Assembly (NCBI RefSeq): GCF_900215575.1
Contig: NZ_OBEJ01000001.1
Location: forward strand, 434,001-498,000
Source of the DNA: Natronoarchaeum philippinense
GTDB taxonomy: Archaea; Halobacteriota; Halobacteria; Halobacteriales; Natronoarchaeaceae
DNA: 64,000 nt
Direction of reading: 5' to 3'
The translations under genes and the position numbers were made by a program. Shown piece after piece: positions 8,454 to 49,987 of this stretch. Below the pieces are notes generated by a model that saw nothing but the letters and a program-made list of their open reading frames with translations, did not search any database and had not been told where the DNA came from. How positions within the stretch are numbered: the first letter of the stretch is position 1; each line of letters begins with the position of its first letter.

Positions 8454-9218
8454 TCAGCTGTCAGTGAACCAAACTTCATCGCCGCGAGCGCGACAGTGTT
8501 CCAGCGCATGCTTGGCGTCCATGCCCGCCTCGTGGGCAGTGGCTCCGGTTCCGACACCGACGCGGAGGTCGACACCGGCGATTTCGGAGACGTGTGCGAT
8601 TGCGTCCTCGAACTCGGCTTTCGAGAGCGAGGGACACGCGGCGATCACGTTGTCGCCGCCGACGAAAAACGACAGCGAGTCGTTCTGGCCGTGCATGTAC
8701 TTCATCAGGGCGGCGTACCCCTGTTCGATCTCGATAAACGACTCGAACGCGCCGACCTGATCGGTGTACTCGCCGGTCGCGTCGATCACGTCGAAGTGTG
8801 CGATCCGAACGTCCTCGTCGGTGCGGTGCTCGTCGCCGATCGTGCGGCCACAGAGGATTTCGCGGCGCTCTTTGTCCTGTGCGCTGCCCCGCTCTTGCAG
8901 CCGTTCGGTGGCGTCGGACAGCGCTTGGGACGGCGTTCGACCGGTCGCCACGGAGAGGCTGATCGTCACCGGATAGCGGTTCCCGATCGACTCTTGGATC
9001 ATCGCGTGGTCGGACTCGTCGAGCCCGTTGGTCACGGCGATCATGTTGTCGAACCGGGTGAAAAAGACGTAGCCACCGCGGTTGCCGATCAGCTGTGCGA
9101 GGTCGGCGTACAGACGGGACTGTAGCGTCTGGAGGTCGACTTCGCGGCGCGGTTCCGGCGTCACTGTCCACGGGCCGTAGTTGTCGATCTGAACGAGCGT
9201 AACCTGCGTGTTCGTCAC
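8454..9218 (-). CDS. gch3: GTP cyclohydrolase III
   Basis: This enzyme converts GTP to the formylated 5-formylamino pyrimidine phosphate (FAPy), the first step of archaeal riboflavin/F420 and pterin-type synthesis. The 254 residues form two related palm (GGDEF-like) halves, and the motifs TRFDNMIAV (about 54-62) and FFVGGDNVIA (about 174-183) provide the metal and GTP sites. The start codon is GTG (9218): a TATA box on the reverse strand (9246-9253) lies 28 nt upstream, which argues for a leaderless GTG start. The pathway's later reductase is encoded at 38700-39359 and a riboflavin-binding dodecin at 49417. Confidence 0.93.
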   Translation of the reverse strand: MTNTQVTLVQIDNYGPWTVTPEPRREVDLQTLQSRLYADLAQLIGNRGGYVFFTRFDNMIAVTNGLDESDHAMIQESIGNRYPVTISLSVATGRTPSQALSDATERLQERGSAQDKERREILCGRTIGDEHRTDEDVRIAHFDVIDATGEYTDQVGAFESFIEIEQGYAALMKYMHGQNDSLSFFVGGDNVIAACPSLSKAEFEDAIAHVSEIAGVDLRVGVGTGATAHEAGMDAKHALEHCRARGDEVWFTDS

Positions 9219-9245
9219 AGTATCACTGTCTTGTGACGCATCTCG

Positions 9246-9253
9246 TATAAGTG
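9246..9253 (-). promoter_or_regulatory. TATA box of gch3
   Basis: On the reverse strand acttatac sits 28-35 nt before the GTG start at 9218, matching a leaderless promoter and supporting the GTG as start codon. Confidence 0.6.
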
Positions 9254-9290
9254 ACGCGAAGCCGCGCCGCCGTCCGAATCGTCCGCAAAA

Positions 9291-9611
9291 TCAGGCGCGT
9301 TTGATCTCGGGGTCCGAGCCGACGGGGTGGTAGTCCCAGTAGCCGCCCTCGCGGATCGCCGCACCGACTTTCTTGTGCATGTCCACGATCGTCTCGAACT
9401 CCTCGGCCTCGACGTGGCCGAAGATCTCTTCGAGGCTGACGACGCGCTGGTGGTTGATTCGGATCGGCTCGTCGCCGTGGTCGGCGACGAACTCCTCGGC
9501 CGACAGGGGGAAGTCCTCGTCCTCGTCGACCTTCTTGGCGATGATTGCCATCCCGTACTTGCGCATCCCTTCGCTGCCTTTCTCGTCGTCGGGATCGTGG
9601 GGCCAGTCCAT
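9291..9611 (-). CDS. DUF5785-type small conserved haloarchaeal protein
   Basis: This 106-residue soluble acidic protein begins MDWPHDPDDEKGSEGMRKYG and ends EIKRA. I recognise it as the haloarchaeal DUF5785 family, which has no known function. There are no membrane segments or cysteine motifs. The gene lies between gch3 and the pilin-like gene, all on the reverse strand with 50-72 nt gaps. The domain name is from memory of the family pattern; the reading frame is secure. Confidence 0.8.
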   Translation of the reverse strand: MDWPHDPDDEKGSEGMRKYGMAIIAKKVDEDEDFPLSAEEFVADHGDEPIRINHQRVVSLEEIFGHVEAEEFETIVDMHKKVGAAIREGGYWDYHPVGSDPEIKRA

Positions 9612-47414: not shown

Positions 47415-47548
47415 CACCGATACTTGACAGTGGCTGCGTTTCACGCTATATTCTCCGACGGTTCGGACAGAATCGTCACGCTGAGTCGATACGTCAAGAC
47501 TCGACTCATTCGGTAACTTGTAAGGCAACGCGAAAACAAAGGGTGGGT

Positions 47549-49306
47549 ATGCCCTCTTCCAGCCCAGGACCCCGTCGCCGGGAACTGCTCGGCGCGCTCG
47601 GAGCGTCGGCGCTCGGCTCGACTGCGGGCTGTACGAACCTCCTGTCCCAGTTCGCGTGGGACAGCCCTAACGACCTCTCGCTGACGATTGCGACGGTCCC
47701 CGCCAGCGTCGATACCGCGGCCATCCAGATGGCGCGCCAGCTCGAACAGAACCTCCAGCGGGCCGGCATCAACGCAACATACGAGCCACAGAGCGAGGCG
47801 TCGGTCCTCCGGAGCGCCCTGATGGACAACGACTTCGACCTGTTTATCGCCCGCCATCCCGGCGTCGACGACCCGGACAAGCTTCGCACCATGCTTCACA
47901 CCCGCTACAGCGAAGAGGCGGGCTGGCAGAACCCCTTCGGCTTCACGGCGCCGTCGGTCGACGAGTTGCTGGTAACACAGCGATCCCAGACCGGTCAACA
48001 GCGACACGAGACGGTAACCGAGATTCAGGATCGGCTGTACGAGCGCCAGCCGTTTAGCGTTCTCGCGTATCCAGATCAGCTAACCGTCGCCAGCACCGAA
48101 CTCGACCTCGAACGGACGCCGAACGGGCTCATCGAGGCCCCCGACTACCTCAAACTCGGTACCGCTAACCCGAGTTTCGACCGCTTGCGCGTCGGTATCC
48201 TCGGCGCCACGCTGACTCGCAACCGCAATCCCATCGCCGTCGACTACCACAGCCGCACCAAGGTGCTCGACCTGATCTACGAACCGCTCGTCGAACAGGT
48301 CGGCGACGACTACATTCCGTGGGTCGCCGCGAACGTCGAGTGGGACGCCACAAGCGGCCCGACGACTGCGCGCGTCACGCTGCGAGAGAACCTCGCGTGG
48401 CACGACGGCGAGCGCCTCGATGCCGACGACGTTGCGTTCACCTACCGGTTCCTGCAGGATACGGCCATGGGCAACGAGTCGGCGCCCGTTCCGGCACCGC
48501 TGTACCGGAGCAGATCGAGCTTGGTCAACTCGGTGTCGGTCCAGTCGGACAGAGTGATCGAACTGGAGTTCGGCGATACCAGCCGTCCCGTCGCCCGTCG
48601 CGCGCTGACCGTCCCGCTGTTCCCGCGGCACGTCTGGACCCAGCGCACCGAGGTGGTCCGGACGTACATGACACAAGCGCTGGTCTGGGAGAACAAGCCG
48701 GCGATCGGCAGCGGTCCGTACCGGTTCGAGAACGCGAGCGCCGGCAACCGGCTCGTCCTCTCGAAAAACGAGGACCACTTCCTGTTCGACGGGCGCAGCC
48801 TCGGCGACCGGTACGCCCCGTTTACCGCCGGTGGGTCCTTCGAGGAGCTCCGGTTCGATGTCATCGAGCAGTCGCTACTGCTGATCGGCAGCGTCGAGGA
48901 CGACACCATCGACATCGGCGCATCGCCGATCTGGCCCGAGCACGCCGAGGGTGCAAAACAGGCGCCCAACGCCGAGTTGCTGTCCGGCGGCAACGGTGAG
49001 TTCTACATGCTCGGATTCAACACGCGTCGACACCCGCTGAACAACCACCAGTTCCGGACCGCCGTCGCCCGGCTGATCGACCGCGAGTACGCCGTCGAAG
49101 AGATGATGTACGGCCACGCAGAGCCGGCTGATTCGCCCCTCGTTCAGACCGAGTATCTCCCCGAGCAGTTCGCTTGGGACGGCCAGCCCACCTTCGGCGC
49201 CTTCCCCGGTGATGCGGGCGAGGTCGACCCTGAGAGCGCCAAGGAACTGTTCCGGGACGCCGGGTTCCGCTACGACGACAGCGGCAAACTCGTCACGCAG
49301 AACTAG
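47549..49306 (+). CDS. Tat-lipoprotein solute-binding protein, circularly permuted SBP_bac_5 fold
   Basis: This 585-residue lipoprotein begins [20 protein letters not shown] (Tat motif plus lipobox, Cys 28). Residues about 43-205 match the usual C-terminal lobe of peptide-binding SBP_bac_5 proteins ([51 protein letters not shown]), and about 213-585 match the usual N-terminal part ([64 protein letters not shown]) and stop at [17 protein letters not shown], exactly where the C-terminal lobe should begin. It therefore looks like a circular permutant. No permease or ATPase genes are near. It would bind peptides or a similar solute. Confidence 0.8.
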
Positions 49307-49416: not shown

Positions 49417-49617
49417 ATGGTCTTCAAGAAGATCACGCTGATCGGCACGAGCACCGAGAGCTTCGACGCCGCCGCCGACAACGCGCTCGACCGAGCCGAA
49501 TCGACGCTCGACAACATCCACTGGGCGGAGGTAGAAGAACTCGGCGTCGAGGTCGCATCGGCCGACGATCGAGAGTACCAAGCCGAGGTCGTGGTCGCGT
49601 TCCAGCTCGACGAGTAA
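49417..49617 (+). CDS. Dodecin (flavin-storage protein)
   Basis: This 66-residue protein ([20 protein letters not shown]) is a dodecin: small beta-strand/helix protein that assembles into a 12-mer hollow shell holding riboflavin and lumichrome. The flavin-sandwiching Trp is in HWAEV (about 36). In haloarchaea it protects against free flavins. The window also encodes GTP cyclohydrolase III and the pyrimidinone reductase of riboflavin synthesis. The start is supported by a TATA box at 49384. Confidence 0.95.
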
Positions 49618-49618
49618 G

Positions 49619-49987
49619 TCAGGTCCGGAACGACTCGCCACAGCCACATTCGCTGACGACGTTCGGATTCTCCACGTGGAACCCTTCAGCTTGCAGGCCG
49701 TCCTCGAAGTCGACGACGCTGCCCTCGACGTAGTTGAGGCTCGCCGGATCGACGAACACGCGCAGGTCGTGGTGCTCGTAGATCGTGTCGTCCTCGTCGG
49801 GGTCGCGGTCGAAGCGCATCCCGTAGGACAGCCCTGCACAGCCGCCCTGTTGGACGAACAGCCGGAGTCCGGCCTCGTCCGTGTCCATCTCCTCCTGTTC
49901 GAGCAGCGCGAGCGCACGCTCGGCGGCCGCCTGTGTCACCTCGATCGACGGCTGGCCCTCCCCGCCGGACGCCGCGTCAGTACTCAT
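49619..49987 (-). CDS. Iron-sulfur cluster assembly A-type carrier (IscA/HesB family)
   Basis: This 122-residue protein has the HesB/IscA fold: IEVTQAAAERALALLEQEE, then LRLFVQQGGCAGLSYGMRF with the first Cys (about 50) and the C-terminal SECGCGESF with the two closing cysteines. It carries Fe-S clusters to apo-proteins. The ATG at 49987 is preferred over 50059. The gene is convergent with dodecin (1-nt gap after its stop). ApbC at 25613 could be a partner in cluster delivery. Confidence 0.93.
   Translation of the reverse strand: MSTDAASGGEGQPSIEVTQAAAERALALLEQEEMDTDEAGLRLFVQQGGCAGLSYGMRFDRDPDEDDTIYEHHDLRVFVDPASLNYVEGSVVDFEDGLQAEGFHVENPNVVSECGCGESFRT

Follow-up and report, generated by a model that had tools for sequence, protein, structure and literature searches.

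The window, a stretch of 64,000 nucleotides from Natronoarchaeum philippinense (contig NZ_OBEJ01000001.1, positions 434,001 to 498,000), carries the gene whose features are collected in Table 1. Its ATG lies at 47549 and a TAG closes the open reading frame at 49306, while the start given in the ORF listing is an in-frame GTG at 47543. The encoded protein reads RRR in the region 10-12 and ...GSTAGC28 at the lipobox. We aligned it with eleven haloarchaeal relatives (12 sequences) and found R10, R11, G27 and C28 to be invariant; the Tat signal and lipobox Cys28 announced in the earlier note are present; the motif EAGWQNP, within residues ~43-188, is invariant in the same alignment. With its twin arginine and lipobox cysteine the protein looks like a Tat-exported lipoprotein, and its export would follow that route. 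It ends in GKLVTQN, at the permutation break described below. No permease lies near the gene.

Table 1. Features of the permuted SBP_bac_5 locus (positions in the window)
Feature	Position	Strand	Basis
Permuted SBP_bac_5 lipoprotein gene, 585 aa	47549..49306	+	Pfam and HMM matches, 114 co-linear relatives
Tat-type signal and lipobox Cys28	47549..47632	+	Sequence; twin arginine at 10-11
C-terminal segment of the family, aa ~43-188, canonical HMM columns 339-480	47675..48112	+	Pfam fragment match, canonical HMM, alignment
Join of old C-terminus and old N-terminus, aa ~189-226	48113..48226	+	38 residues against 39 canonical columns; no net linker
N-terminal and middle segment of the family, aa ~227-585, columns 13-328	48227..49303	+	Pfam and canonical HMM
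Small dodecin-like ORF, next downstream gene, neither permease nor PAP2	49419..49619	+	Identity by inspection

In its native order, the window protein matches the SBP_bac_5 profile of Pfam (PF00496) best along residues 255-580, which cover profile positions 2-285 with 160 bits (curated cut-off, 32.4 bits) and lack the profile end. A fragment comprising residues ~33-211, taken alone, matches profile positions 289-355 (E 3.4e-5), and when the protein was rejoined in silico with the C-terminal part first, a single match spanning positions 2-355 was obtained with 171.5 bits. We also used an independent canonical HMM of 507 columns, made from E. coli DppA and five SBPs of canonical order. The native order gave two domains (41.1 and 130.7 bits), residues 43-188 falling on columns 339-480 and residues 227-578 on columns 13-328, and the rejoined protein gave only one, covering columns 14-480 with 186.2 bits. 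Hence, columns 339-480 precede columns 13-328, the reverse of the canonical N-to-C order of the PF00496 profile. Canonical controls showed the opposite behaviour: swapped at the same column, they split into two domains or lost the second one, and their best score dropped. When 86 permuted proteins were rejoined in the same way, 65 gave one near-whole-model domain. With this HMM, 88 ORFs of the inspected loci were classified as permuted and 25 as canonical, four fragments or weak hits being left out of both classes.

The two halves are thus homologous to the family in swapped order and match it continuously after rejoining, as in a natural permutant. The earlier note had read the swap from the order of motifs and had predicted that joining the C-terminus to residue 43 would restore the standard arrangement; the Pfam and HMM comparisons of native and rejoined chains, together with the canonical controls, bear out the first claim, and the single continuous match of 186 bits agrees with the second. 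Its limits for the swapped segment (~43-205) need correction: the swap is real, but the aligning part covers only ~43-188, and residues ~189-226 correspond to the old termini. That the first ~200 residues might form an unrelated domain is ruled out by their match to the C-terminal end of SBP_bac_5. Judging from its sequence, the window protein is a permuted relative of the family and not an ordinary member, and we consider it almost certain that the gene encodes a circularly permuted SBP_bac_5 protein.

Regarding the position of the break, most full-length core matches among the 86 permuted proteins stop within columns 325-336, and the N-terminal parts, with few exceptions, start at columns 337-350. 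This zone corresponds to residues ~341-343 of mature E. coli DppA, in the loop that connects ...LKEAGLE to KGFSIDLW.... With the lobes assigned from the established DppA/OppA fold, the chain has been cut once, in a helix-strand loop of lobe 2, and the two original termini, which both belong to lobe 1, would have been joined directly. In length, the stretch linking these former termini differs from that expected of the canonical ends by a median of -1 residue (77 proteins). Such a join, devoid of a net linker, would fit a clean route of duplication, fusion and deletion, the simplest version being a tandem duplication whose copies fused and then lost their outer ends. Starting material of this kind exists, as Phyllobacterium carries four canonical SBP genes in tandem.

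We inspected 114 non-identical, co-linear relatives of the window gene across haloarchaea. The genome collection contained 14 co-linear relatives with 33-44% identity, and many more were found in 391 Halobacteria genomes, those listed being near full length and 35-67% identical. The orthologues are permuted too, and none was found in ordinary order. Permutation at the family level, which the earlier note had supposed, is therefore common to the haloarchaeal relatives, and the same break also occurs outside the window family. Co-linear matches were obtained in other haloarchaeal SBP subfamilies and in alphaproteobacterial plasmid proteins from Microvirga, Nitratireductor, Ketogulonicigenium, Neorhizobium, Roseomonas and Maritalea. 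The HMM located the same break in five of these genera (Microvirga, Nitratireductor, Ketogulonicigenium, Roseomonas and Maritalea). Solved canonical SBPs match the N-terminal part of the Ketogulonicigenium protein with their C-terminal part, the best being AppA (1xoc 384-497, E 4.8e-7), and none of the listed PDB matches is co-linear with the permuted order. The bacterial spread rests on plasmids, where at least 80% of a permuted query is covered in 55 of the 2,811 records that match; the remaining listed plasmid rows are mostly core-only matches, as expected of ordinary-order SBPs. The matches inspected in other classes of the phylum are canonical (loci L099, L100 and L106-L108), and no relative was detected in viral contigs. 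Duffyella, Cetobacterium, N. petrolearium and Phyllobacterium, considered as further permuted bacterial groups, proved canonical on checking. Besides, the permuted SBPs of a Halalkalicoccus plasmid (L119) and a Nitratireductor plasmid (L091) are 38% identical, which, together with their plasmid location, suggests transfer between domains. In a Haloarculaceae MAG contig (L012:333-2002) the family gene is split over two reading frames, probably by a sequencing error or because the copy has decayed.

The mature window protein was modelled with AlphaFold2 from a 20-sequence alignment, with middling confidence (pLDDT 67.8, pTM 0.61); a 12-sequence run reached a pLDDT of only 55.8. All 50 PDB matches listed by Foldseek are SBP_bac_5-type binding proteins, among them NikZ, AppA and mannoside- and chitin-binding proteins, with NikZ (4oet, E 5.6e-15) as the best. 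The best matches are partial, extending over ~390-430 columns with a TM of ~0.4. Foldseek compares chains sequentially and would be expected to cover only part of a permuted one; this result is consistent with the permutation and does not prove it.

The gene neighbourhood sets the window family apart. An ABC permease follows 17 of the 18 permuted genes outside the family and stands beside none of the 114 genes within it; the permease and ATPase genes that mark the operon of an ABC-importer receptor accompany neither the window gene nor its family. Directly downstream, on the same strand, 107 of the 114 genes have a gene for a PAP2-superfamily membrane protein, counted by domain position because ORF starts are misled by long in-frame extensions. 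Both genes often overlap (stop/start) or lie a few bases apart, with a median gap of 4 bp in the 55 pairs measured by ORF start. These partners match PF14378/PF01569, and of the 107 proteins, 105 retain PSLH and 106 HWxxD; the annotation of the one from Haladaptatus pallidirubidus reads PAP2 family phosphatase. No close equivalog was found for them in NCBIfam, all scores being far below cut-off. Examples of pairs are L001:5743-6633, L006:5740-6612 and 8500-9411, L054:5331-6194 and L061:8734-9531, with ~100 further loci, and in haloarchaea two pairs sometimes stand in tandem.

Among the seven exceptions, with no adjacent PAP2 gene, are the window gene and those most closely related to it (L016, L022, L023 and L024). 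The genome of the window encodes two PAP2 homologues of the partner subfamily, both unlinked and on another contig (C2:165737-166495 and C2:490882-491619, loci L110 and L111). The tree does not support them as relocated partners, as it places neither close to the partner clade. This genome also encodes a canonical SBP with an adjoining permease. As to the ABC-linked permuted SBPs of alphaproteobacteria and Halalkalicoccus (L091, L092, L119 and L121), genes for a hydantoinase/oxoprolinase, an M28/M20 peptidase or a creatininase occur close to some of them, a hint that their substrates may be cyclic amides or resemble peptides.

Our proposed explanation is as follows. The window protein would be exported by the Tat pathway and held by a lipid on Cys28; it would fold into the two-lobed cleft of an SBP, a trap that would close on its ligand, and the tether on Cys28 would now adjoin lobe 2 instead of lobe 1. 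Asp408 and Arg355 of DppA are ligand contacts. In the permuted proteins the position of Asp408 is mostly Gly, Glu or Ala and that of Arg355 mostly Ala, and since neither residue is conserved, dipeptide binding as in DppA is not expected. Because none of the 114 genes has ABC genes adjacent, the proteins of the family would not act as receptors of a dedicated ABC importer; the window protein is likely a membrane-tethered ligand-binding protein that does without one. In most genomes, the ligand could be captured on the outer side of the membrane, or presented there to the PAP2-superfamily phosphatase or phosphotransferase encoded downstream. Such a ligand may be, or may carry, a lipid-linked phosphate or head group that is processed on that side, which is the weakest step of the proposal. 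In the window's own clade, the partner might be an unlinked PAP2 homologue or something else. Adjacency is no proof of shared function, and we hold the coupling of the permuted SBP to the PAP2 enzyme as a tentative reading that falls somewhat short of an even chance. For the explanation as a whole (a fixed permutant that lacks a dedicated importer and presents its ligand to a PAP2 enzyme), we judge the arguments for and against to be evenly balanced.

That the swapped order is an artefact, be it an assembly join, a pair of tandem partial genes or a chance order of motifs, has a probability close to nil. We found nothing in its favour, and independent genomes of numerous genera share the identical order and break with named, complete plasmids, which excludes the assembly join as well as chance. 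Another question is whether the order changed only once. We built a tree of 29 permuted proteins, rotated to canonical order, and 23 canonical ones. The free tree needs two changes of order, because L099 and L107, both canonical and from methanogens, branch within the permuted group near its base, as would follow if the permutation had arisen more than once or had reverted. However, holding the permuted proteins as one clade is just 1.5 log units worse (AU p = 0.41) and the break zone is common to them. A single origin is thus neither rejected nor proven, and we regard repeated origin or reversion as improbable; this alternative concerns the origin only.

Regarding function, the window protein could be an ordinary ABC receptor that serves, in the manner of an orphan SBP, a dpp/opp-type permease encoded elsewhere. 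Permuted relatives from alphaproteobacteria and other haloarchaeal subfamilies do belong to full ABC operons, and the canonical SBP of the window genome has its permease alongside. Yet the permease, nearly constant in the sister groups (17/18), is never found next to the family genes (0/114), and its place has been taken by a conserved alternative neighbour, PAP2, so this reading seems unlikely. One could also argue that transport has been wholly lost, the protein being a ligand-binding sensor or some other surface lipoprotein that shares no more than its regulation with the PAP2 gene. The window clade (L016, L022, L023, L024), which retains the SBP with no PAP2 gene adjacent, would fit this, and a role as chemoreceptor has been put forward for MglB-2 of T. 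pallidum, likewise a permuted SBP lipoprotein (PMC4990184). But in 107 of 114 cases a PAP2 gene is adjacent, its start often overlapping the stop of the SBP gene, which points to a link beyond common regulation, and we find the sensor rather unlikely. A wider version of our proposal of a ligand-presenting lipoprotein is less likely than not: the permuted cluster C SBPs would be a large class born in a single event and spanning archaea and bacteria, of which one haloarchaeal branch exchanged the ABC transporter for a membrane PAP2 enzyme, so that a former nutrient receptor would now present the ligand as one subunit of an enzyme acting on lipid phosphates.

What is new in this analysis is that the window's family lacks the ABC permease and conserves a PAP2 neighbour. 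Profile annotation conceals both the permutation and this pairing, with proteins labelled simply as ABC transporter substrate-binding protein. The near-invariant pair of SBP and PAP2 leads to an unstudied cell-surface system of haloarchaea, and the permutants allow testing if the termini and the position of the lipid tether matter for the docking of receptor and permease.

Our literature search returned one natural permuted SBP only, the cluster B protein MglB-2 of T. pallidum (PMC4990184), and neither a permuted SBP_bac_5 protein nor an SBP-PAP2 pair; subscription journals were thinly covered, so an earlier description may exist. The closest known systems are the SBP_bac_5 or cluster C proteins (DppA, OppA and NikA of E. 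coli, AppA of B. subtilis), whose nearly whole length is matched by the rejoined halves of the window protein and whose type supplies its best matches in the PDB, whether compared by sequence or by fold. In contrast to them, the window protein has its segments swapped, and its family has no adjoining ABC genes. The downstream partners of the family belong to the PAP2_3 (PF14378) phosphatases and phosphotransferases and keep the catalytic-type PSLH and HWxxD motifs, although in the window's genome no member is adjacent to the SBP gene. Proteins from Nitratireductor (WP_113156578.1), Ketogulonicigenium (WP_013385786.1) and Halalkalicoccus (WP_238532955.1) share the segment order and break of the window protein; unlike the window family, this type lies in operons with permeases and ATPases, and is annotated merely as "ABC transporter substrate-binding protein". 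Tp0684 (MglB-2) is a circularly permuted, type I or cluster B glucose-binding lipoprotein, for which its authors proposed a sub-class of permuted SBPs (PMC4990184). Like the window protein, it is a natural permutant of a lipid-tethered SBP (PMC4990184), but it belongs to another SBP cluster, with another break and a poorly conserved permuted part, whereas both halves of the window protein are recognisable.
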